The translations under genes and the position numbers were made by a program. Below are positions 17,307-63,849 of a stretch of 64,000 bases of DNA, one piece after another. The first letter of the stretch is position 1. Each line of letters starts with the position of its first letter. The notes under the pieces are model-generated. The model did no database searches and had not been told where the DNA came from. It saw only the letters and a program-made list of their open reading frames with translations. This DNA comes from Saururus chinensis (taxonomy: Eukaryota; Streptophyta; Magnoliopsida; Piperales; Saururaceae), in contig CP141142.1 of NCBI GenBank assembly GCA_035235625.1, positions 40,155,644 through 40,219,643 of the forward strand, in the 5' to 3' direction.

Positions 17307-20300
17307 TTAAATTATGTAAATTGGGTTTATCTCTGAATCAGAAAATTCTGCGTAATGATTCCATGAGTTAGAGCCACTCCTCCTTGATGACTTCTCCCTC
17401 TTTCTCAGTTTCCTGGTCCGTCTAGACTTAAGAAAATAGTAGGTCATAGTGCCGAGCACACTAGCCATTACTACTCCCCCAATACAAGTAACCAATATAG
17501 CTGCCCACCGGTGATGTCGGCCAACAACAATATAAGCGGAGGCAATAAATGCCACAGAGGTGCATACTGAGGCCAACCACATCAATTTGTTAATAACTTC
17601 TATAACACTTCTCTCTGTTTTAGTCTCCCCTCTAACCAACGTAATTTGGACCACCACGACAGCCAAAGAAGTGAAAAGAGCAACTGCATTGAATAGAAAG
17701 AAAATTTTGAAGGAAGTTCTACCAACCATCACGGCAACACCTGAATCTTCATCTCCACCAGGCAAGGTAAAAATAGCGGCAAAAGCCACTGTGGCAAACA
17801 AAACTGCAACCACTGTAACAGAGTTGGTGGCATTATTGATCCCTTCTCGGTGAAGCTTACGAAGCTCCTTGGCAATTCCATAAACATTCTTGTTTGTTTT
17901 TCGGGTTTGCTCGAGCTGGGTGTGGACATCCTTCTTGATTTCCGTTACAGTTTTTCTTAGCTCGTCCCTTGGTTGATTGAGTTCATTAGCTCTTATGGCA
18001 CCACAACGTATCAGGCATTCTTTTATCTCTTGGGCTTCCTCTGAAAGAGGCAGTCCCTCGGCTATGTCCAAAGCTGTTTTGTGGTCTCTGTTAAGCGCAT
18101 TCGCGTTGGTATCAGGAAGGGATAGGAGTGCATTTACAATCTGCCATTGAACAAAGGATATATAGTTAATACGCCATCAACTGATGTCCTTAATTAAGGT
18201 GCAACATGTAGAATACAATAAGAAATTTTTATTCAGATATCAGTAGAGCAAATTTGTAATACAGGTTGTTTGATATTCACCAAGTTCCTACTTTGAGGAA
18301 AAGAACTGACCACTAGCCAAAGAATTTTCAGATTAAAACACAATAGATTTAAATTTTCAGATAATCAACACCTTCTTTCGCCATCAACTGCTAACCCTGC
18401 TTCAGTTACAATTTGCGGTACAAAATAAGGATTTCTTCATGAACAACACCGTAAACATCAATCCATGTTGCATGATATATATGAAATCCCCACTTTGAGT
18501 GAAAGAATAAACCACTATCCTTCTTGTTCACAATACAAAAATTCCAAAAGAAATAAAAAAGAATTTTCAGATGAAAACACAAGCAATGACCAAATGGATT
18601 TTGTATAAGTTGCTCGAATGAAGAAACGAGATCCACAACAATGACCCATTAACATGAAATTTTCAGAGTCTTTACCCAGACAGTGCAGATTAGCTCAGCT
18701 AAAGCCAACAACTATGAAACAACATATGCAATTCTTTATTACATCATACGCTGATGGGGCAGACAAAAGCAGATCACTTTATCAAAATGGTCCAAGTTCA
18801 GAGATTCTTTAAGATGCAATACAGAGATGCAAGCCAGAGATTGCTTTCCACTCTCCTAATGACCAACAAAACAATGCATTCGATGTTTTATTATTAAGAA
18901 CAGACTATAAACAACCAAGTCTAATATTTGAGATGAAAAGTTTTAAAAATTTCCTTAGATATGTATCAGTTCAGTTAAACAAATTTTAAACAAATCCTTT
19001 TTAAAATAAGAAGTCTGAGTCAAGAGACTTAAGAAAATGCAAGATATATAAACAATACCACAAAACTAAGCCACAAAACTTATTACACAGTACCTCTGAT
19101 CGCTTTTTCCTTGTGGCTACATGCAAAGCAGTGTTTCCAAACTTGTCAGGTAGCATTACTATTGCAGCATCTGCATCAAGAAGTGATTTTACCACTTCAC
19201 AAGAGGTTCCTTTTACAGCCATATGTAAGGCAGTCTGTCCTTTTTTATCTTTTATGCGCGCCAATTGTGGATCCTTGTCAAGTAACGCATTAACAATTTC
19301 TACATGACCTTGCCGTGCAGACAAATGGAGTGCATTTTTTCCATTGGTCCTAGCAATCCCTAGTAAGCTTGAATCCCTTAATAATAATTCTTTCACCACC
19401 TCAGTGTGACCCCTAGTTGCCGCAGAAACAAGGGGAGTTGCATTTGATTGGCCCAGTGTTTTGCTTAGTCCAATGTCAAAATCCAAAAGTACCTGCACAA
19501 TAGCTGTATAAAACATACCAGAATATCATTAACTCAGCCTGATACTTCTTCTCCAAATCTTTTTCAACTACTTTTATCTTTCTTGTAAAGTTTATGCTGA
19601 TCCACTACCAGCAGGAGAAAGTTGTATTGATAATGCAACAAAATCATAGAAGATAATAGCATGAATTTCAAGACCCAGTGCTTCCATGCCATAAGAGTCA
19701 AGACTAACAATTGGATTAGATAAACAATATCAGCAACTCAATAGAATTCGTCCAATATGTAACAGCTCTAAGTTAGATATAAGTCTCTTGTCTTCCTCCA
19801 AAACAGTTCTGTTTTTCTCTTAACAAACATTACCTTAATACTGCTCACCAATTTACACCCACTAATTCTCCATTCCATCAAGTTATATACATTCAAAATT
19901 TCAAAGCTAACAGTGAAATACACATACTTTTTTATTATTAAAGTACAATTTTTTTATTTGATGGTCATGTAACAATTGCCCACAACAAACTCATCACTTA
20001 AAACTTTAAACGTGCCAAATGGAGCATTATAATATAATAACGAAAATCAACATGAAAAGCTGTTTCCAATGTAATCTCAACAGCCACATCAAATGAAATA
20101 TACAACCGATTTCAACACCATAAGTCAAGTTCAACACTGCTCATTACTGTCAACCACCAAACTATTGAAAGCCATTTGCGACAACAGTGTGGTTCACTGA
20201 TCTGCCAATATCATCGCTATAATATACCAAATCACGACAATTCCGATACTCTACTTTCGATCATGTAGTACTTAAAATAGCATACACAGTACACACTGTA

Positions 20301-21076
20301 AGATTTACCTTAAGCAATAATTCCATCCATTAAGGACCCCAATTTTATTACTAAGTTGAAGCACAGTCTGATGTACTAAATAATTGTTGAATCACAATCA
20401 CCAGAAAAGAGTCACCACAAAATCAATATAGACAATAAATTCTTCTTTTTCTCAACTTCGATACATCGCCTTAGTCCACATTGTAATGACAAAAAAATGA
20501 TAAGGAACGCAAACAACTCAGAAGAGAAATTGATAGCTCACCATGGTGACCCTGGCTGGCCGCCCGATGAAGAGCATCGAACCCGGCCAGGTTCTTCCTC
20601 ATAACGCAATCCTTGCTCGAGTACTTGAGCAGCTCCTTCACCACGTCCAGGTGCCCCTTCTCCGCGGCCATGAACAACGCCGTCTCCCCCAGCTCGTTGA
20701 CCTCGTTGACAACGGAAGCCTGGATCTCGGCAACCTCCGCGTCGAACTCGGCACCGCTCAAGGTTCCCACCATCTGCGCGTCAATCTCGCCGAGGATCTG
20801 CTTGACGGCCGCGAGGTCTCCCCTCTGCGCCGCCAGGTGGAGGTCGGTGTCGTTGTGACGCCCGGTCACCTGCTTCACGTACTTCTTCTTCCCGGACGAC
20901 TGGTCCATCCGCTTACCGGAATTGGACAGGACCAGCGCCGGGGCTGCGGAAGAGGGCGAGGGGGTGGCGGTGGAGGGAGAGGGGACCGAGGAGGGGGAGA
21001 GGAGGCACGGTGGGGGATTGATAGGCGCGAGAGCAGGATTAGAATTGGGTCTTACCGAACCCATTTCGAGATCCAT
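17307..21076 (-). CDS. Ankyrin-repeat/PGG-domain membrane protein (ITN1-like)
   Basis: Three exons join in frame: 21076-20542, 19503-19094 and 18140-17307, giving 592 residues. The start is ATG at 21076; a second ATG is 12 bases downstream. Residues 1-70 are Pro/Ser-rich and probably disordered. Ankyrin repeats cover about 78-340 (motifs such as GETALFMAAEKGHLDVVKEL, KNALHLSARQGHVEIV and QTALHMAVKG). A PGG domain follows (NATNSVTVVAVLFATVAFAA, TLPGG at about 440), with four membrane segments near 422-440, 456-483, 494-520 and 526-551 and a basic C-tail. Arabidopsis ITN1 and relatives are plasma-membrane proteins in salt, ABA and ROS responses; that role is by family only. Exon 1 is strikingly GC-rich compared with the introns. 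Both introns are GT-AG (about 0.95-1.04 kb). Confidence 0.92.
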
Positions 21077-21379
21077 TGATCAGCTCCGTAAAAAAGCTAT
21101 AACTTTTGCGACGAAAATCGCGGCGAAAAACGGAAGAGAGGAACTGCGGGGCCGGGATTCAGACGCAGGCGTCTCGATCAGCGTCGGAATACATGTCTCC
21201 GATCGGCGGGAGGATCGGGAGCCTCATGAATCCATTTCCGAATTCCGACCAAGCGAGAAGTGGGTGGGGGAGAGGAGGAAAAGGTGTCAGGGGCAGGAAG
21301 GTAAATTCCTTACAGAAGCCGCCGGGCCCACTCCCACTCTGAACCAATGAGGATTTTATGAAGAAAAAAAACTCAACCA

Positions 21380-35066: not shown

Positions 35067-36908
35067 TCACTGGGACCCCCGACAATACTTGCCGGACGGG
35101 GACGACCCACCAGTGCCGGAGATGGAGAAGCTTCCGGCCTCTCTGTGGAACAAGTCGGAAAGGTGGTTCTCCAGGTCCTCCGGTGCGAACCTCACTGCCC
35201 CTGGCGCCGCCGCCCGGTACCGCTGGTAAAATGCACGGTACCCGGGAACAATTGCTCGTGCCGTTGAGATCTTTATTTCGTCCCTCAGCCTCCCGTCCGA
35301 AACCATCCACCCTGCCTGCCTCCGGCAAGCTTCCTCGAACTCCCTATTAAACGTCCTGAACACCTCATCCACCGCTGCCCCCGCCATCTGTTCCTCCGCA
35401 GGCAGCGCTGCCGCCACCTTGCTCCATACCATCCTCTCGTAATTTGCTGCGTAGAGCCTAACGTTCTCCTCCTGCTTCACCACCCACTGATCCCCCAGGA
35501 GTTGGCGAAGGTTGCCGGAGTTTCTCACCTTAGCCACCACGTAGTGAAGGTTGTTGCAGAGGAAGAGATAAGACAAACCCACGTCCTTGTATAGCTCTGC
35601 CTTGCCGTCTATCTTGCAGAGGAGGACGAAGATGATCCAGGCAAACCTGAGGGAGACGGTGGAGAACGGGTTGTTGGAGGAGAGGGAGTCTGAGTTATCA
35701 AAGAATAGTGACTCGGGCAGCATCGGGCTTGGTACTGGGAGCGGCATGTCGTCCAGAATGTTGACCAGGGATCCACCGTAGTCGGCTAGTAAGCAGACGT
35801 AGTTCATCACGTACCGGGTGGCAGGGTGGAGCCCTCCCCCCGGCACTGGTGACTTAGCCGGATCCTTCTGGATGGCCGACTCGAACTCGGCCAGTATCAC
35901 CCGGACCGCCTCGGCAAGTTTTTCCGTTGCGACCACCGCGGCCGCCTGAACATCGGCAGCGGAGTCTGCGGAGAAGGTCGTCTCAATGTCGGGCCAGAGC
36001 TCCACGACGGCCTCGTACATGTCTAGGAACCGGAACATCCGCTCCGGCGTCTTCTTGCACTTAGCGGCGACGGACTCGGGGAAGGCAAGGAGGCCCAGGG
36101 CGGACTTGTGGGCAATCTCATTGAAGCAAGACTCTCGGATGGCGGCCGAGGCGGCGAATACATGGTCGATGAGGGCCCTCTCCCTGGGGAAAAGAGTACG
36201 GACGGCCACCGTGAAGGCACCAAGCCAGGCCCTGATCCTGTGCTCGAGTTGCTCCCACTCCAGCTTCTGCAGCTGGCTGCCGGACATAGCCTCGAACCCA
36301 ATCCGGTACAGACCCTCATCGACGATCGACTTTCTGATGAGGTTGTAGACCTGAACGCACTCCTTGCCGTATCCGGAGCTGATCATGCACTCAGCGATCG
36401 ATCGGAGGTCCGACATCGCTTGGGAGGAGAACCCCTCGACCTCTCTGAGCTGGGTCTCTTCGTCTGAGCCCGCATCCTCTTCGATGTCAGAGGGGGACAA
36501 GGACGCCGCGGTGGTGATGGAGGAGCGGGAGGAGACGGATTCAGGGTCAAGATGATGGCCGCGGTTGGCCTCAAGGATTTGGTAGAACTCCTTCTGCAGA
36601 CGCTTCATGGCCGTCTGCATGAGGCTCTGGGCCTTGACGAGGAGGTGGTGGGAGGGGGAGGTGGCGGAGGGGTGGTCGATGTAGAACTGCATGGCGTGCT
36701 GGAGGTCCCCGACCGCGCGAAGGAAGTCGGCCGCCTCGCGGCGATCATTCCCATAGAAGAGTGAGGCGGCGTCCCACTTGGTGATGATCTCTTCAGCCGC
36801 GGAGACATTGTCCTCCATGAGCGTATCCGAGAAGGACCTGGTCGGCGAGGAAGCTCTGGTGTTGCCAGAAGCAGAAGAAGTTGGTTTGGAAGAAGAGAAG
36901 AGCCTCAT
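35067..36908 (-). CDS. Exocyst subunit EXO70, H-subfamily-like
   Basis: A single uninterrupted exon encodes 613 residues from ATG at 36908. The Ser-rich N-terminus is followed by LMEDNVSAAEEIITKWD, typical of plant EXO70H proteins, which are usually intronless and near 600 residues. The C-terminal Exo70 domain covers roughly residues 220-600; a conserved end block reads FNREFEEACRRQAGWMVSDG followed by LRDEIKISTARAIVPGYRAF. The protein is a peripheral subunit of the exocyst, which tethers secretory vesicles at the plasma membrane; H members are often linked to defence and polarised secretion (family knowledge). The coding region is far more GC-rich than its surroundings. A TATA box lies upstream. 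Subfamily assignment is less certain than the EXO70 call. Confidence 0.9.
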   Translation of the reverse strand: MRLFSSSKPTSSASGNTRASSPTRSFSDTLMEDNVSAAEEIITKWDAASLFYGNDRREAADFLRAVGDLQHAMQFYIDHPSATSPSHHLLVKAQSLMQTAMKRLQKEFYQILEANRGHHLDPESVSSRSSITTAASLSPSDIEEDAGSDEETQLREVEGFSSQAMSDLRSIAECMISSGYGKECVQVYNLIRKSIVDEGLYRIGFEAMSGSQLQKLEWEQLEHRIRAWLGAFTVAVRTLFPRERALIDHVFAASAAIRESCFNEIAHKSALGLLAFPESVAAKCKKTPERMFRFLDMYEAVVELWPDIETTFSADSAADVQAAAVVATEKLAEAVRVILAEFESAIQKDPAKSPVPGGGLHPATRYVMNYVCLLADYGGSLVNILDDMPLPVPSPMLPESLFFDNSDSLSSNNPFSTVSLRFAWIIFVLLCKIDGKAELYKDVGLSYLFLCNNLHYVVAKVRNSGNLRQLLGDQWVVKQEENVRLYAANYERMVWSKVAAALPAEEQMAGAAVDEVFRTFNREFEEACRRQAGWMVSDGRLRDEIKISTARAIVPGYRAFYQRYRAAAPGAVRFAPEDLENHLSDLFHREAGSFSISGTGGSSPSGKYCRGSQ

Positions 36909-37044: not shown

Positions 37045-37521
37045 GGAGAGGCTTGGGGGAATTTTGACTGTAGACGCGTCCCTTGGAAAAATTATCCTTC
37101 CTTGTGCGGACATTTCCATCGCTATGTTGTTTTACTAAATTGATTTTCTCAAACTGTTTTGTTCTTCTATTCTAAAATATATATATATTTTTTAATTACT
37201 CTTCTAATTATTTTTATATCTTTTACTATTTTTTTCACTTTGTTACCCCCAATTAAAAAATGATGAGTTTATATGTACCATACTAATCTCCTCGTTACCC
37301 GTGTTATTTATAAATTTAGTAATAAGTTTATAGGGTTATTAGGGTATTAAGAAAATTATTAGGGTGCATATAAAATTATTCATTAAAAAATAATAATTTT
37401 TTAATTTTCTTTCTAGGCAGAAGGGGCCACTATTCCTTTCCTCTCTTCCCCTATGGTCTCCGCTTGCCTGGCTTTGCAACTCCTCTTTCTCCTCCTCCTC
37501 TCTTTCTCCTTTATTACTTAC

Positions 37522-38188
37522 TGTTACACCCTTGGTTTGTGGTATACGGGAGGAGCTCATGTGCGGACGACGGAAGCAGCCTAGCGCACATGCAAAGGTA
37601 TGGAGGGCGCGTGGAGGGCATGCTAAGGGCGTGGCCATGTCTTCTCCTTCTCATTGGCACATGGGCGACGTGCCAAGACTGGCGGTTGCATAACCGACCA
37701 GCACGATCTCCACTAAGACCCGAGTGCATCATGGCGAAGAACATGGGAGTAGTGACTGACGGTTGCTACCCACTACCGGAGCGGTTGCTGCACACTCTCG
37801 TGCATAACCGCAAGACGGTTACGGACGGTTACGGACGAACTAGTGGGCTGAGTCATGGGGGTCATGTTGTAACCGCTTGGCTGCGACCAGCGGGTATAAA
37901 AGGGTGGGGAATACATTGTAAAAGAGAGGATGAAGAGAGGGACGAGAAGAGTGCAAGTGGGTTTGGGTTTTGGCACTAAGATTCAAACCAAGTGCTTGTG
38001 TAACATCAAGTGCGAAAGGGTTATTTCAGGCTGAGCCTTTTTCCCTTCACTTTCGTTGTTCTTTATAGCGTGCGTGCGTTTCCTTGTGATCGTGTGTGCG
38101 CTAATAGAGTGAGAAGGCTGCTGATTGTCGAGGGCAGTCAGGCCGCACAAGGCGTGTGAAGTCATAGCGAATTTCGGGCCTTGTGACA
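37522..38188 (+). repeat. 5' LTR
   Basis: The LTR starts TGTTACACCC and ends CTTGTGACA. A TATA box (GGGTATAAAAGGG) at about 37893-37905 marks the promoter, so U3 is about 370 bases. U3 contains repeated CGGTT/AACCG words (for example GGCGGTTGCATAACCGACC and CGGTTACGGACGGTTACGGA), which resemble MYB-type sites. Confidence 0.93.
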
Positions 38189-38190
38189 GT

Positions 38191-38201
38191 TGGTATCAGA
38201 G
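38191..38201 (+). other. Primer-binding site (tRNA-iMet)
   Basis: TGGTATCAGAG is complementary to the 3' end of plant initiator tRNA-Met and lies two bases after the 5' LTR, where minus-strand DNA synthesis would be primed. Confidence 0.88.
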
Positions 38202-38314
38202 ACGAAGCACTGGTGGGTACAACTCTTGGACGGGCTCGATTCAAGAAAGCTTAAGGATTTTACCGAGGTCCTAAAGACTTGGCGGGTTGCTGAAGGCAGA
38301 GAGTTTGCTTGTCG

Positions 38315-39526
38315 ATGGTAGGCTCAATGCTAGCTCGTGTCTCGGAACTTGAGGCGAAGGTGGATGCGATGTCTACGGGGAATGGGATGCTGGCTGAAGT
38401 CCAAACCTCCTTGCATGAAATTCAGGAGCGTTTGGGGGCGTTCAACCAGCGTGTGTCCATTCTAGAGGTCGCTCCCCATCGGGTCGAGTCTCCGAAAGGT
38501 AGTTCGGCTGAAGAGGCAGTTCGGATCACGACGTTGTCCGCTGAAATGGCTGAAACGACGGACTTCCTAAGGCAGCGAATGAATCAAGTTGCAGATGATG
38601 CGGCGGCAAAATTCAAGGAGCTGATGGACGAAGTGTTAATGCTGAAGAGGTCAGTCATCAACACCGCTCTACGAGATGGGGGCGAAGGGACATCTCAACA
38701 AATGTCGAAGAAGACAAAGGTGCCCAAGCCAAAGGCGTACTTGGGAATGCGAGGTGCCAAAGAGATTGGCAACTATCTTTGGGATATGGAAAGCTATTTC
38801 AGGCTGATCCATGCCCCGGAGGAGGCAAAAGTCTCAGTGGCTGCAATGTATCTTGAGGGGGACGCAAAGCTTTGGTGGCAGACGCGGTTGGACGATGATG
38901 TAGTAGCAGGTCGAGCAAGGATTGAAGCATGGCACACGTTCAAGAAGGAGTTGCAGAAGCAATTCCTTCCCAAAAATGTTGCTTGGCTTGCAAGAGAGGC
39001 ATTGCGAAAGCTCAAACATACGGGGGCAGTTCGGGACTATGTGAAGGAATTTCAGTCACTTATGCTGGGAGTGACTAACATGTCGGAGGATGACAAGTTG
39101 TTCTACTTCATGTCGGGCTTGCAAACATGGGCGCAAAACGAGTTGCGTAGAAGGGAAGTAGAGGATCTTCCCGCGGCCATTGCAGCGGCAGACAGTTTGG
39201 CAAATTTCAAGGAGAATTTTGTCGGGCATGGGAAGCAGAGCAACAAGTCAGCAAACACAAGCGGCATAAAGGGTGGTAACGGTGGCAAGGACAAGGGCAG
39301 TGAACAGCCAGGCAGGCCGAACAAAGGTGGTGGTTGTTTCCTATGCAATGGGCCACACCGTGCCAAGGAATGTCCGAAGAGAGAAAGGTTGAATGCGTTA
39401 GTTGCTGCGGAAGAGGATCAAGCTGAGTCAGACCATGAGGACTTAGTTCGGTTGATGCCTTTGCAACGTTTGGGGTGCATTCAAGTGTTGGAGTCCTCGG
39501 GAGAGGGGGCTGATGCGGATTATTGA
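38315..39526 (+). CDS. gag: Retrotransposon Gag polyprotein (gag only)
   Basis: The first ATG in frame is at 38315 and gives 403 residues; a slightly longer frame would need a TTG start. An N-terminal heptad-rich stretch (MLARVSELEAKVDAMSTG) suggests a coiled coil. The central retrotransposon gag domain covers roughly residues 150-290 (YLEGDAKLWW, QKQFLPKNVAWLAREALRKL, FYFMSGLQTWAQNELRRREV). A basic Gly/Lys-rich linker leads to one zinc knuckle, CFLCNGPHRAKEC (CX2CX3HX4C), a spacing I have seen in other plant Ty3-type Gag proteins. The frame is intact, so the protein could still assemble particles. The stop at 39524-39526 is not followed by any pol frame. Confidence 0.9.
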   Translation: MVGSMLARVSELEAKVDAMSTGNGMLAEVQTSLHEIQERLGAFNQRVSILEVAPHRVESPKGSSAEEAVRITTLSAEMAETTDFLRQRMNQVADDAAAKFKELMDEVLMLKRSVINTALRDGGEGTSQQMSKKTKVPKPKAYLGMRGAKEIGNYLWDMESYFRLIHAPEEAKVSVAAMYLEGDAKLWWQTRLDDDVVAGRARIEAWHTFKKELQKQFLPKNVAWLAREALRKLKHTGAVRDYVKEFQSLMLGVTNMSEDDKLFYFMSGLQTWAQNELRRREVEDLPAAIAAADSLANFKENFVGHGKQSNKSANTSGIKGGNGGKDKGSEQPGRPNKGGGCFLCNGPHRAKECPKRERLNALVAAEEDQAESDHEDLVRLMPLQRLGCIQVLESSGEGADADY

Positions 39527-39613
39527 GGAGACTCGCACTTGGGGGATCAGTTCTCCCAAGGACTTGGCTGATTGGAGCAGTCAAGTGGGGCAAGGAGGAG
39601 TCTTTGGATAAAA

Positions 39614-40105
39614 TTTTCACTTAGCCGTGGTGTGATGGGAGGAGTTGGTGACGAGAGGCCAAGCTTTTCAATCGGGGCACCTGGGAAGTATGAGGTTTTC
39701 ACTTAGCCATGGTGTGATGGGAGGAGTTGGCGACGAGAGGCCAAGCTTTTCAATCGGGGCACCTGGGAAGTATAAGGTTTTCACTTAGCCGTGGTGTGAT
39801 GGGAGGAGTTGGCGACGAGAGGCCAAGCTTTTCAATCGGGGCACCTGGGAAGTATAAGGTTTTCACTTAGCCGTGGTGTGATGGGAGGAGTTGGCGACGA
39901 GAGGCCAAGCTTTTCAATCGGGGCACCTGGGAAGTATGAGGTTTTCACTTAGCCGTGGTGTGATGGGAGGAGTTGGCTACGAGAGGCCAAGCTTTTCAAT
40001 CGGGGCACCTGGGAAGTATAAGGTTTTCACTTAGCCGTGGTGTGATGGGAGGAGTTGGCTACGAGAGGTCAAGCTTTTCAATCGGGGCACCTGGGAAGTA
40101 TGGGA
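39614..40105 (+). repeat. 82-bp tandem array, six copies, inside TR-GAG element
   Basis: Units start with TTTTCACTTAGCC at 39614, 39696, 39778, 39860, 39942 and 40024, an exact 82-base period. The units are almost identical, with a few single-base differences. Because 82 is not a multiple of 3, the array is not coding. It lies between gag and the 3' LTR, just before the presumed polypurine tract (GAGGAGGG at about 40134). Confidence 0.95.
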
Positions 40106-40143
40106 TTCGACGAGGACGTCGACGGTTTCAGCCGAGGAGGGTC

Positions 40144-40810
40144 TGTTACACCCTTGGTTTGTGGTATACGGGAGGAGCTCATGCGCGGACGACGGAAGCA
40201 GCCTAGCGCACATGCAAAGGTATGGAGGGCGCGTGGAGGGCATGCTAAGGGCGTGGCCATGTCTTCTCCTTCTCATTGGCACATGGGCGACGTGCCAAGA
40301 CTGGCGGTTGCATAACCGACCAGCACGATCTCCACTAAGACCCGAGTGCATCATGGCGAAGAACATGGGAGTAGTGACTGACGGTTGCTGCCCACTACCG
40401 GAGCGGTTGCTGCACACTCTCGTGCATAACCGCAAGACGGTTACGGACGGTCACGGACGAACTAGTGGGCTGAGTCATGGGGGTCATGTTGTAACCGCTT
40501 GGCTGCGACCAGCGGGTATAAAAGGGTGGGGAATACATTGTAAAAGAGAGGATGAAGAGAGGGACGAGAAGAGTGCAAGTGGGTTTGGGTTTTGGCACTA
40601 AGATTCAAACCAAGTGCTTGTGTAACATCAAGTGCGAAAGGGTTATTTCAGGCTGGGCCTTTTTCCCTTCACTTTCGTTGTTCTTTATAGCGTGCGTGCA
40701 TTTCCTTGTGATCGTGTGTGCGCTAATAGAGTGAGAAGGCTGCTGATTGCCGAGGGCAGTCAGGCCGCACAAGGCGTGTGAAGTCATAGCGAATTTCGGG
40801 CCTTGTGACA
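40144..40810 (+). repeat. 3' LTR
   Basis: Same length as the 5' LTR, with six transitions (for example ATGTGCGG to ATGCGCGG, and CTGAGCC to CTGGGCC). It ends CTTGTGACA, followed by the CTTAC target duplication. Confidence 0.93.
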
Positions 40811-41133
40811 CTTACCATAGTGGCAAATTTAAAATCGTTGCATAGTCGTGATTTATTAGCCTAAGCCATGCTTCATGGATGCTTGGCTTGGTTATATTAA
40901 ACTCAATAAACCTATATTCTTTTTTCAGCAGACACACTTGCGATATGTCATCCCAAATTCTCTCCTGGTGTGGAACTTTACTTAAGTGGCCTATTTTTAA
41001 TCAATGAAAAACTTATGTGAGTTACTTTTGATCAAGAAAAAAATTTGTACGCTAGTTTTCCCTACCATTCAAATCACACTCACTGCACCCATTTATTTAA
41101 GTTGAGCGGCTTCTAAAAGAAATCAATATTTTT

Positions 41134-55858: not shown

Positions 55859-55911
55859 GAATTAGGGGCTTTAGATTGGAAGAACTGAATGATGACGCTG
55901 AAGTCTGAACT

Positions 55912-58900
55912 TGTAATATCCCTAATTTTCCTGGGTTTCGAAATTTAAATACGTGGAAATTATGGTGTTTGACCCATTGATATTCTTATTAGAATAACTT
56001 TCTCCCTAGATAGAATTTGAGGCTGAAACTAATTCTATTGGAAAGTAGACGAAAAGAGCTTCGAAATGCCACCAAGAATGCGCGAATCGGAGTCCGGATG
56101 AGGGAGAAACGACCGTCTGAAGTTGAATATATCGTGTAGGACCCATTTACCCGAATTAAACGTGCAATGGGGCCGTTTAAGTCGTTTTGAGGGCCCGATT
56201 ATTTAGCATTCCGAAATTGGGTTTTTGGGACTCAATTTCTCTTGGGATTAGGGCTCCTAATCCCATGCCTATAAATAGAATTAATAAGGGCTTTTATAGG
56301 GGTCTTTTTGCCCGATTGGGGGAGCTTTTTGGCCAGTGAAGGAAAGCAAATTTTTCGGCGAAACTCCGGCGAGGCGTTGGCGGTAGTGGATTGACAACAA
56401 CTTGACCTTAGAGGTAAGATTTCGAATTGAGACGGACAAAGACGTCGTTAATTAATTTTAATAAAAGTTATGGTAATTTCTGCAAATTTCTGCAAAAACT
56501 GTTCACGTGATTAGGGAACAGTATTTTCAATGGCCGGAATCATCCTAGAAAGGGGGCCGCTGGCCCTCGCCGTGGCGACCGTGGCTCTGGCCACGGAAGC
56601 CCCGACTCCGGCAGCCTTGGCGGCGGCAGTGAAACTGCCGCTGCAAGCCGTTTGGTCGTCGCGCGAGAAAAAAAAAAAAAGAAAAACAGACAGCGAGACG
56701 CTGCCGCTGGCCGCACTGGCCGAGGCCGTGCCGGCCCAGGCCACGACGGCCCCGGACGCACCGGCCTGGGACGCGCTGGCTCCGGCCGCGTCGGCATCGC
56801 CGCCAGTTTAAAAAAAAAAAAAGACGAAAAAGGGGCCAGCTTTTTGGCCGCCGGACGGCAGCGGGACCGATCTTGTCGGTTCCGCCGTGCTCCGGCGATC
56901 CGGGGTCTGTGTGCCGCCCAAACCTCCGCCGCGGGGGTGGCGGCGCCGCCAGAGGCCGAAACGCCTCTGGCCGGACGCGGGGAAGACGACCCGCGCCGCG
57001 GGCCCTCGACCCAAACCGACCCAGTCCGGGTCGAGTTTTTTTTTTAAAAAAAAAGAAAAGAAGAGAGAAGGGAGTGAACCGGGTCCGGTTCAAGGGGCTA
57101 AAAGTGTCAAATAAATTCTATAAAAATATTCATGTATCTGGAGAGGTTTGGGATTATTTTGACCGAGTTTCAGCTTGGGGAAAAATCCCAGAGATTGTGA
57201 AATAACCTTTTTACCCCTAGTAGTTAAGTTATCGTGTGAAAATCACTTACCTGTTTTAGAGGCTCCGGTTCAAAGGCCTATGAGTTGATCTAAAAAGTAG
57301 AAAAATTCTCAGTGATAGTTTAATATGTAAACTAATTATGGGCTAAACCACTTATTGAGAAAAAAATCCCAGTGAGTGGATAATTGACCCTTTTGTCCTT
57401 AGGGTTTATAGTAAACCATTAAGCAAACCTGGGTCGGTTCAAGGGGTTCATGACCCCGTTACATGTCAAGAAAATTACACAGAGTCCATGAAGGCCAGTA
57501 GTACCCTTGAGTTGAATTTTAGACCCATTGGATATCATTAAGGCCTTAAACCAAATGACAGAACTACCCCTATACAAACTGGCCCGTATTCGCATGGATG
57601 CTATTAACAGGCCAATGTAATACCGAAACATTTTGAGAGGTTAAAGACTTACCCGAGTGCAGAGAGGACTGTATCCAATGTTAGATAATTACTCTAATGC
57701 CCTTGGGTGCATTTCGACCAGTTTAATAAAGATTTATTAAGATAACCCAAGGTGGGTTAGGGCACGAGAGCTCGAATGATTCTTATATCATTAATGAATT
57801 CTATTATTGATATTATGATATGCTTAGACCTGTGCAGTTCTTATGGTTTATGTTGTTCTTTGTTTCGATTTATGATATTGATGCTGTGATAGTAATTTAT
57901 CACAATCTTTAAATTATTGAAAGAATAATTGTTTGGGGTTTGATAGCTTTGGATTGGGCAAGAACACCTAATCAAGATAAAGACTAAAATACCTCAGAGG
58001 GTGCAGGACTAGTTCATACAGTGAATAAAGCCTTTGACCTGACGATTTGCCTTGGTTGATGAACCGATGGCATGTCTCGAGTTGTAAACCTTAGTCTAGA
58101 AGGGACTAATAGGGTTTGGGATAGTCATTCGGAATCCTGGCTTATAGATGAGCAAGATAGGGTTCAGAATGCTTTCCTGAGTTCTAGCTCTATTGAGGAG
58201 CCGCTGATTTGACCGTGAAGTTACACCTCCCCATTGGAGGGAGTTCTTTGTGAGCCGGGCTCACCGTAGATCTATTGAGGATCTTTTAGTGTACACGCAA
58301 TTAGGGTCGCTGACATCCTGCTTGGTTGGCGTCTCTGACCACTTCTGTTCAGGTGCAGTTGTGGGCCATGCCCTTCCACTCCGGTCAGGTCCTTATGGGC
58401 TAGGTTAGGAGATGGCACTTCCTGGTGGATTCCAGGGGCCTGGTGGATTCCAGGGTGTTTCTTATCATTTGTCACTTAGGTTGACATCTGATGTGTCTGT
58501 CTGTCTTTGGGGATTATACGGGAATATTAATTATCGAACAATGGTTCGAGAAATAATTAATAACATTGATTGATATTGCTTATTTAATTAGAACAAGTGG
58601 AACGATTAAAGGACTTGCATAAAATGTAGGTTGCTTGAAAATACTTAAGCATTGCATGGGTGATGCTATGCTTCTTAGTATAGTATAGTTTTTAGGCAGA
58701 ACTACGTTTGGATCCGATCTTGTTGGAAACATTGGAGATGTTGTCTGATGAGTACGTAGGCAACTAACATTGGGTGATGTTGGCCCGATCCGAATAATAG
58801 TAATAAAACCTTTTGTCCATTAGAAGCTCTTCTCCTGAAGGCGGAGATGCTCCATTGTGGTTGTGGTTGTTGTTTGGTTTGCTTTATTGCAGATTCTTCA

Positions 58901-59224
58901 GGCGACGACAAGTCAGACCAAGGCAGGCAAGCTCAAGAGGTTTCCGCATTTTTGAAACTCCGATATGTAAGTGTACCTTAAGCATGAGAGTCAACTTGTT
59001 ATTTATTTTCAGACGGGTGACAGACTTGTACTTAGATGGATGAGCTGGTCTTTATAAATTTTCAGATGTTAAATAATATCATATGATTTGATATTCGTAT
59101 TTGTGAACCCCAGTTATCATGACTTGGATATTTAATCGAAGGATTTGTTTTGTATTTAAAGAAAAAAAATTTACCTACCGTTCGTGCTATTTAAAAATGC
59201 TTTAAAAAAATCCGGGTCGTGACA
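55912..59224 (+). mobile_element. Solo LTR 2 (3313 bp, same family as solo LTR 1)
   Basis: It starts TGTAATATCCCTAATTTTCC and ends CCGGGTCGTGACA. The flank GAACT is perfect on both sides (55907-55911 and 59225-59229). No interior genes are present. It contains a GC-rich block (about 56520-57030) broken by A or T homopolymers, which produces several Ala/Pro/Arg-rich open frames on both strands; I treat these as artefacts. Homology with 49115-53184 covers both outer thirds. Confidence 0.9.
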
Positions 59225-61431: not shown

Positions 61432-63162
61432 CTACTCTGTTATAGATTCTTTTTCAAGAACCTTTCGTTCCACCAATGCCGTGTGAAGCTCAAAGGCCTC
61501 GTTGGTCATTCCAGCTGCAGCTATTCCTTTTATCAGAGCAGAATAGATGGCTTCGCTTGGTTTATAATGACTAGAAATCATCATATCCAAAATCTCTATT
61601 GCCATATCCACCTTCTTTTTCCTGCACAATCCCTCAATCACTAAACCATAGGTGGTTATTCTAGTTCTATAATTTCGTCTATCCATCTCCCTCAACATAC
61701 CCACGGCCTCTTCTATCAAATCCTTCCAACAGAAGCCACAAATCAAAGAAGAATAAGTGATGTCATCAGGAGTAATTCCTCTTTCAACCATCTTTTCAAA
61801 CAAATGCATTGCTTCTCCCATTTCACCTTTTTTGGACAAGCCATCAATCACAGTGTTGTAAGTGATTAAAACAGGGGAACACCCAACACCTCCTAATGAG
61901 TGAAGTATATTGAGAGCTACATCAGCCAGACCTTCTTTGCAAAGGGCATCCAATAGGGTATTATATGTAACAATATCAGGAGAATGACCCTGGCAGATCA
62001 TCTGGTCCAAGAAATCTATGGCCCTGTCCAGATGTCCATATTTACAAAGACTATTAATCAATATATTGTACGTGACATTAGTTGGGTAATGGGAAGTCTG
62101 GTTCATGACTTCAAGAATATCATCAGCCTTAGACCAATACCCACCACTGCAAAGACCATGAAGAAGGGTGTTGTAAGTGATTGAATTGGGTTCTAATCCA
62201 CGTGACAAAAGATCAAAAACGACCAAGGCTGCATCTTCGTACTTTCCTTCCTTCCGAGTCAGATTTAACAGTGAATTATAAGTCACAATATCAGGGTGGC
62301 ACCCCTCCATTGCAATATCATCGACAACTTCCAAAGCTCTACTTATTCCAAAGTTCTTGTAGACTGATTCAATAAGTATGGTGTATGGAATCAGGAATGG
62401 AGGACATCCTTTTGCAAGCTGATCCTTCCAAAAGAAAACTGCTTCATCAAATTTTCCACTGTTCAACATGCAACGCATTATGGTCTTATATGTGATCACA
62501 TCAGGCTGGCAACCACTCAAACTCATGTTCTCTAGAATTTCCATAGCAGAACTCAACTGTGCTTTCTTACAAAGCCCTCCAATCAGCATATTATAAGTGA
62601 TTATATCAGGGATTCCACCAGACATAACCATGGAATCTAAAACTTTAGTTGCCTTGTCAATTCTATCAGCTCTAATCAGACCTCGTATTAGGTTAACACA
62701 TGTTGGGAAGTCTGGAACCTGACTAAGACGAGCCATGACATCAACCAAGTTTGCAGCCTCAACTACCTTGCCGCTTATGCAATATTTGTTCAGTATATTA
62801 TTGTTCAAGCTCTCACTGTTCTTGACAAATGGCCCGTCAAAGCTTAAGGCAGCTGACTCGGAAGGTCTCTTTGATTCAACCTCCGGACGTACAAGCTTCT
62901 TAGGCGGAGTAAATAAACCTCCGCTAAAGCTGTGATTGTCCTTGCTGCTACCATTAACCCTCTCTATGGAACTACTTCTCTGCAGGACTCTACATTGCAG
63001 CACAAATCTATTCTTCCGGAAAACATCGCGACCCGCCAATGCTAAAAAGGAATCAACATTAGCCTCACAGTTCACTGAACAATCAAGCCGCCATGTTGAC
63101 AACTTGATTGTATAGCAACTGGGAAACCCGTCCATACAGGGGGAGATTCTGCTGGTACCCAT
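61432..63162 (-). CDS. P-class pentatricopeptide repeat protein (At1g08610-like)
   Basis: One exon encodes 576 residues from the first in-frame ATG at 63162. The frame stays open upstream to 63249, but that part begins only with GTG. After about 100 poorly conserved N-terminal residues, roughly 12-13 PPR motifs of 35 residues run nearly to the C-terminus (for example VMSGGIPDIITYNMLIGGLC, GCHPDIVTYNSLLNL, GHSPDIVTYNTLLDALCKEG, GITPDDITYSSLICGFC). No E, DYW or other tail is present, so it is P class. Block order and wording match Arabidopsis At1g08610 as I recall it (GCPPF...YTxL, YNTLLHxLCS). Such proteins bind organellar RNA in a sequence-specific way; target and organelle cannot be read from the sequence. 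A 5'-UTR intron near 63200-63550 is possible. Confidence 0.92.
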   Translation of the reverse strand: MGTSRISPCMDGFPSCYTIKLSTWRLDCSVNCEANVDSFLALAGRDVFRKNRFVLQCRVLQRSSSIERVNGSSKDNHSFSGGLFTPPKKLVRPEVESKRPSESAALSFDGPFVKNSESLNNNILNKYCISGKVVEAANLVDVMARLSQVPDFPTCVNLIRGLIRADRIDKATKVLDSMVMSGGIPDIITYNMLIGGLCKKAQLSSAMEILENMSLSGCQPDVITYKTIMRCMLNSGKFDEAVFFWKDQLAKGCPPFLIPYTILIESVYKNFGISRALEVVDDIAMEGCHPDIVTYNSLLNLTRKEGKYEDAALVVFDLLSRGLEPNSITYNTLLHGLCSGGYWSKADDILEVMNQTSHYPTNVTYNILINSLCKYGHLDRAIDFLDQMICQGHSPDIVTYNTLLDALCKEGLADVALNILHSLGGVGCSPVLITYNTVIDGLSKKGEMGEAMHLFEKMVERGITPDDITYSSLICGFCWKDLIEEAVGMLREMDRRNYRTRITTYGLVIEGLCRKKKVDMAIEILDMMISSHYKPSEAIYSALIKGIAAAGMTNEAFELHTALVERKVLEKESITE

Positions 63163-63849
63163 ATGACCATAATTCAGCTGCAGCCCTCCCACAAATGCGC
63201 ACTGCTTCCAGATTGCCAGAAGCTGAAGTTCATTTGCTTTCTCTATTCATTTCTACGCAGCACATGCACGAGTACCACAAAGAACATCTACAATCAGCTC
63301 ACTCACATAAAAATTAAACTTTTTTGTAAAGCCCAGGTATCTATGGAAACAAAAAGGTTCACCTCATATATTTGTGAAAGCAAGAACACCCCACTGGACA
63401 CTAAAGAAGGGACAAGACATACGCAATAAAGCCCATGAACAGGCGAGCGGCAGCCACTATCAAGACCATTAAATCTGTGAGGAACGAAAAGACAGATCAA
63501 ATTCTATCCACTAAAAGCTCTTGAATCAGCAAGTCCAAAGAAAACCCACCTGGTATGTAATGTTCCAGAGAAGGAAAAATGATAGAGTTCAATGCCCCTC
63601 TGAATTGGGTTTGCCAAAGAAGACTGTCACTCGGCTTTCTTCTTCCCTGAAGCTTTGCAGGTTCTTTTTGGGTTGCTGAGAAGAGGAGCCGTTTTGATTT
63701 TCTGAGAAAACGAGGGAGGGACGTGATTAACTAGGGCTCGCCATGGCCCATTGGGGAGGTTCTTGCCAGGGCTCTAACGGACCCTGATTATTGTGTTGGT
63801 GGACACGGATTGGTGAAGCGGCGGACCCGACTTCGATTGTCTCTTCGAC

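Follow-up and report, generated by a model that had tools for sequence, protein, structure and literature searches.

The gag-only LTR retrotransposon at positions 37522–40810 (+ strand) of the window, by which we mean the whole 64,000-nucleotide stretch of Saururus chinensis DNA that was analysed, is a TR-GAG, probably a non-autonomous Ty3/gypsy-type element of an old pol-less lineage, its Ty3/gypsy affinity being read from the Ty3_capsid match of its Gag, the element having no pol. A broader reading, which we hold only tentatively, would make this lineage, whose age may reach tens of millions of years, a stable parasite that keeps a selected, private packaging Gag, changes helpers through exchange of LTR and primer site (initiator-Met versus Glu tRNA), carries a multiplied, packaging-like noncoding module, and is itself parasitised in both of its types by Gag-deleted minis. 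TR-GAGs are already known as a kind; it is the lineage, old, selected and itself parasitised, that is the interesting part.

The layout of the 3,289-bp element was confirmed to the base, as were the features listed in a preliminary description of the sequence: equal 667-bp LTRs, a CTTAC duplication, an initiator-Met primer site, an intact Gag of 403 codons, and no pol. Comparison of the flanks places the CTTAC target-site duplication at 37517–37521 on the left and 40811–40815 on the right. The 5' LTR (37522–38188, +), which reads TGTTAC...GTGACA and contains TATAAAAG at 37895–37902, and the 3' LTR (40144–40810, +) are each 667 bp long and differ at six positions, all transitions (K2P 0.0091). 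The arithmetic of the earlier age estimate of about 0.35 My holds, with the substitution rate remaining an assumption, and a young insertion is supported, the second-youngest gag-bearing sister, L009, standing at K 0.012. In the 126-bp leader (38189–38314, +), present in gag-bearing and gag-deleted family members alike, a GT separates the LTR end from the 11-base primer-binding site TGGTATCAGAG (38191–38201, +), which is complementary to the 3' end of plant initiator-Met tRNA. An excerpt of PMC3605345 describes initiator-Met primer sites in plant chromoviruses.

The Gag ORF (38315–39526, +; 403 codons plus stop), defined by open reading frame and Pfam matches (Retrotrans_gag, E 9.4e-19; Ty3_capsid, E 7.3e-10), comprises an N-terminal part predicted to be helical, a Ty3-type capsid and a zinc knuckle. 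The knuckle is spaced CX2CX3HX4C, one residue less than the usual retroviral knuckle. The predicted structure of Gag has a mean pLDDT of 40, and no claim made here rests on it; a PDB sequence search returned weak Arc matches only (E 0.2 or worse). No pol is present in the element, the Gag stop being separated from the 3' LTR by only 617 bp of noncoding DNA. This interval holds a post-gag stretch (39527–39613, +) homologous to that of L035, a relative described below; six 82-bp tandem repeats (39614–40101, +; 488 bp in total), the units of a conserved noncoding module; an inverted repeat, TTCGACGAGGACGTCGA (40106–40122, +), kept in most members of both types; and, just before the 3' LTR, a polypurine tract, GAGGAGGG (40134–40141, +). 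The repeats, the inverted repeat, the purine tract and the knuckle spacing had gone unmentioned in the preliminary description. Paired LTRs, target-site duplication and a multi-copy family together exclude a chance origin of the element; a bacterial promoter scan was uninformative for plant DNA.

An intronless Exo70 gene (35067–36908, −; Exo70_C, E 2e-110; GC3 0.77) neighbours the element, which lies 613 bp upstream of the Exo70 ATG and in the opposite direction, so that the Exo70 promoter may include its 5' LTR. Elsewhere in the window are Ankyrin/PGG-domain exons (17313–21079, −) and a PPR-repeat gene (61438–63246, −).

Relatives of the element were sought in the genome with its Gag, the best 103 of 3,606 first-look places being listed. 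L035 is flanked by identical 912-bp direct repeats and encodes an intact Gag, 70–72% identical to that of the window, and has no pol. At 18 further Gag places, the downstream sequence, read over about 1.4–1.5 kb, contained the protease motif D[TS]GA in none and a longest frame of at most 138 codons; the criteria for absence of pol in these relatives were motif, ORF length and spacing, not a profile search. The 19 pol-less relatives read span 61–83% Gag identity; among the 18, L036–L038 (75–83%) are older members of the window type and the remaining 15 belong to the L035 type. In all six L035-type copies with gag and 3' LTR both among the listed matches, the gag stop lies 297–337 bp from the 3' LTR.

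These observations bear first on the alternative that pol was lost by repeated, independent deletions from autonomous elements, Gag being conserved only through selection in the autonomous parents. Pol deletion is common in plants, and a related Gag-protease lineage does exist in this genome, where scoring the best 150 of 657 first-look candidates gave two open frames, of 1,415 and 1,435 codons, which lie at C1:4.13 Mb and C11:3.93 Mb; moreover, with the best 103 of 3,606 Gag candidates listed, a pol-bearing relative could have been missed. Nevertheless, we consider this alternative unlikely. The absence of pol from 19 of 19 further relatives across so wide a span of Gag identity agrees with the earlier view that the window element is not a simple deletion derivative. 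In addition, the alignment of the window element with L035 extends beyond the gag stop into noncoding sequence (score 45, reached by 0 of 2,000 shuffles), and repeated deletion would require the same junction to arise twice.

The noncoding module near the 3' LTR that is common to the window element and L035 was present in 30 of the 31 sequences searched (in its alignment L048 has no row and L015 is interrupted), with two to six 82-bp units among family members and one in the L035 type. Two blocks of the module are 82–87% identical in seven pairs of sequences, compared with 42–53% at fourfold-degenerate gag sites; for the window element and L035, the counts are 72/83 in the blocks versus 54/129 at fourfold sites (Fisher p 2e-11), a p-value that is optimistic because it was their alignability that led to the choice of the blocks. 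The consensus fold of the module is weak (−12.5) and leaves the inverted repeat unpaired, and we propose no RNA structure for it. The L035 leader carries a 65-bp tandem duplication of its own (L035 1347–1523), hinting that repeats are gained in leaders as well as at 3' ends.

When the window Gag is compared with those of 16 L035-type copies, several of them with stops, dN/dS is 0.127–0.198 at a dS of 1.05–1.43, equivalent to roughly 40–55 My at the rate assumed in the preliminary description but so near saturation that only "old" can be read from it. Within the window family dN/dS is 0.256–0.437, post-insertion decay making up a larger share. Against a neutral synonymous to nonsynonymous expectation of about 1:2 for transitions and 1:3.5 for all changes, the private changes of the window family stand at 49:91 and the shared ones at 16:12 (p 0.034), while the 16 L035-type copies give 59:152 and 107:96, respectively (p 3e-7); in both sets synonymous change is enriched among the shared variants, all p-values being rough because the copies are related. 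That the L035-type copies carry this signature among themselves argues further against repeated deletion. The suggestion of selection on Gag in the preliminary description is therefore upheld for the lineage and not for the window copy itself, whose own private changes (8 synonymous, 12 nonsynonymous) are uninformative either way; its companion, an intact Gag after a recent loss of pol, finds no support, since the loss looks old. In a literature search for TR-GAGs with purifying selection, the phrase was met only inside a reference entry, and a gag-only query gave no match.

The genome search for further copies that had been proposed revealed a multi-copy family. Using the LTR on the source genome (516 Mb, 11 contigs), with the best 40 of 265 first-look places scored, twelve two-LTR members were read, of which nine have matching 5-bp duplications that differ between members. 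A gag region is found in seven (the window element, L009, L011, L012, L018, L025 and L017), whose LTR divergences of 0.009–0.066 correspond to 0.35–2.55 My at the same assumed rate. Gag is broken in each of the six sisters that carry it, the cause being either stops that are not shared or a late insertion. The stops of the five uninterrupted sisters lie at codon 216; 367; 308; 120 (with an 8-bp deletion); and 187, 214, 231 and 272, with none in common, and mostly represent CAG or TGG to TAG or CGA to TGA. In L017, gag is interrupted by a 3.6-kb insert, and a stop in its second gag part falls outside this comparison. Stops at such different codons look like the post-insertion decay of copies from an intact source. 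Broken Gag frames in most sisters had been named in advance as a finding that would refute the preliminary description; six of six are indeed broken, but in the five compared no stop is shared.

L015, another of the twelve, has a 3.4-kb insert inside its 3' repeats (L015 1348–4736) that is 84–86% identical to window 55911–59224, so that L015 delimits a different repeat family, GC-rich and present in the window; the inserts of L015 and L017 were examined for pol by ORF only. L014, which is additional to the twelve, is rearranged, with three LTR copies and, between them, the leader and the first 150 bp of gag.

The state of the sisters, together with the finding that 11 of 14 single LTRs are solo LTRs, flanked by a 5-bp duplication, would suit a decayed and immobile relic family in which the window copy is intact merely through youth. 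This is very improbable, however, as the low divergence of the window copy (K 0.009) and L009 (K 0.012) and the identity of the 912-bp repeats of L035 indicate that both types were mobile recently. Capture of Gag by the host, which purifying selection might also suggest, is hardly credible when that selection spans many LTR-flanked, individually decaying copies and no conserved single locus was seen.

The remaining five members (L010, L013, L015, L016 and L019) have one common internal gag deletion, at positions of about 324–1168, and cluster in the tree (support 92/89; 94% of bootstraps), with LTR divergences of 0.017–0.115. Of gag these minis retain ~320 bp at the start and ~44 bp at the end, and they also have the leader, the repeats and the post-gag stretch; they may represent a natural deletion map of the cis requirements of the RNA. 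Among eight L035-type LTR pairs listed (2,844–5,064 bp), three (2,844–2,948 bp) retain the 300-bp post-gag stretch adjoining the 3' LTR, and in two of these three the leader is also among the matches listed; their length, which leaves ~600–650 bp between these parts, suggests a second, parallel gag-reduced line in the L035 type.

The two types differ in their primers. The L035-type primer site, beginning TGGTTCCATTGCCGGGA, fits tRNA-Glu at 15–21 of 24 positions in 11 of 12 upstream stretches (18 of 24 in L035; no fit in L052); the tRNA-Glu 3' end used in this comparison occurs at 7 places in the genome, with 0 for the control. Primer sites have also switched inside the window family, older members (L018, L036–L038) having TGGTAGCTGAG or decayed forms of it and younger ones TGGTATCAGAG. 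Over the last ~113 bp, the LTR ends of the window element and L035 are 74% identical (76/103), and the remainder of the two LTRs is without alignment.

The window pattern of LTR end plus primer site was found at 74 genome places with at most two mismatches (control 0). At least seven of these have a same-strand PF13975 or Gag-protease match, among the matches listed, no more than 4 kb downstream, where 0.09 were expected. The exact older-type site, CTTGTGACAGTTGGTAGCTGAG, as in L018, occurs at ten of the 74, and at two of the ten a Gag-protease junction follows, 1.17 kb downstream at C1:41.68 Mb and 0.94 kb downstream at C1:59.31 Mb, again among the matches listed. At C1:41.68 Mb, 406 bp were read, of which 286 bp cover the surroundings of the Gag C-terminus and 120 bp the LTR end. 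The LTR end of this locus is identical to that of the window element at 92/111 positions (83% over 113 bp), whereas its Gag C-terminus is identical at 26/61 (43%), compared with 47/64 for the window element and L035; this locus is therefore not the undeleted parent of the window family. According to the preliminary description, pol in a related full-length copy would mark the element as a simple deletion derivative; this is approached in part by a decayed Gag-protease locus that has the family LTR end but not the family Gag.

The LTR end groups the window element with a Gag-protease element and the Gag groups it with L035, a conflict that LTR exchange explains. Unequal rates could account for it in part and, given 74% identity between the two TR-GAG types at the U5 end, some of the LTR difference may reflect fast divergence instead of exchange. 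Judging from these sequence comparisons, LTR and primer site have probably been exchanged with helpers at least once in the history of the lineage. Both Gag-protease loci, C1:41.68 and C1:59.31, have stops, so that neither is an intact helper, and the best-scored matches of the genome searches included no intact helper with the window LTR. Likewise, no pol-bearing element among the matches listed combined the same LTR with the same Gag, as a deletion derivative would lead one to expect. Elements with a PF08284 protease, which we assume to be Tekay-like, were rejected as the parent, the Gag being about 24–27% identical at five loci.

These data suggest a model where the LTR would drive a single RNA that is translated to Gag, which might form particles alone or mixed with helper Gag-Pol and prefer its own RNA through signals in the leader, the start of gag and the 3' module. 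Helper protease, reverse transcriptase and integrase would then copy the RNA, with initiator-Met tRNA as primer, and integrate the product, generating a 5-bp duplication. Selection would keep Gag if a working Gag improves the packaging of the copy that encodes it, and Gag-less sisters would ride on that Gag. The helper would most likely belong to a Ty3/gypsy lineage with a PF13975-type protease, of which one decayed locus has the family LTR end and primer site. The usual treatment of TR-GAGs is as a structural class, and this genome allows a test of why a parasite that borrows its enzymes keeps a gene of its own, offering many copies, two LTR types, the natural deletion map of the minis and the selection signature of Gag; if the model is true, self-packaging is what Gag is retained for, and natural deletions could serve to map the cis-acting parts of the RNA.

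Several known systems share parts of this arrangement. In the soybean partners SNRE and SARE of Du et al. (2010), a paper listed among the references of PMC3701649, the LTR of a non-autonomous element was reportedly swapped with that of its partner; LTR exchange would be common to both systems but in the window lineage is read only from the conflict of U5 and primer site with the Gag C-terminus. Plant Ty3/gypsy elements with a PF13975 protease and a CX2CX3HX4C knuckle, which we take to be Galadriel-like, resemble the window element in the knuckle, in the NPLQ motif before the protease and, at one locus, in LTR end and primer site; they differ in encoding protease and more, and in a Gag C-terminus that is 43% identical. 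The TR-GAG class itself is said to go back to Chaparro et al. in 2015, in Genome Biol Evol. As excerpted from citing papers (PMC6022998, PMC10025401, PMC9784723), its definition is that of short elements in several copies, with two LTRs around a single Gag ORF and no pol. The window element has paired LTRs, target-site duplication, primer-binding site and polypurine tract, Gag as its sole coding domain, and a multi-copy family, and the TR-GAG identity first proposed for it is thus supported by both anatomy and family. The Arabidopsis TR-GAG AT5TE33540 (ATCOPIA63), for which an excerpt of PMC8704663 records a new insertion in ddm1, is likewise gag-only with two LTRs, but is a Copia element and, unlike the window family, closely resembles AT3TE48480, which is potentially autonomous. 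BARE-2, TRIM and LARD elements, as defined in parts of PMC6022998 and PMC10025401, are also non-autonomous and helper-dependent, and the five minis resemble a TRIM- or LARD-like step. The window element is of neither kind, its intact Gag ruling out a TRIM or LARD and its intact gag without pol ruling out the BARE-2 type, in which gag is defective and pol present. Relative to the TR-GAG layout as far as the excerpts of the citing papers describe it, the window lineage goes further in having two LTR and primer types on one Gag lineage, a conserved and multiplied 3' module and a coexisting gag-deleted sub-line.
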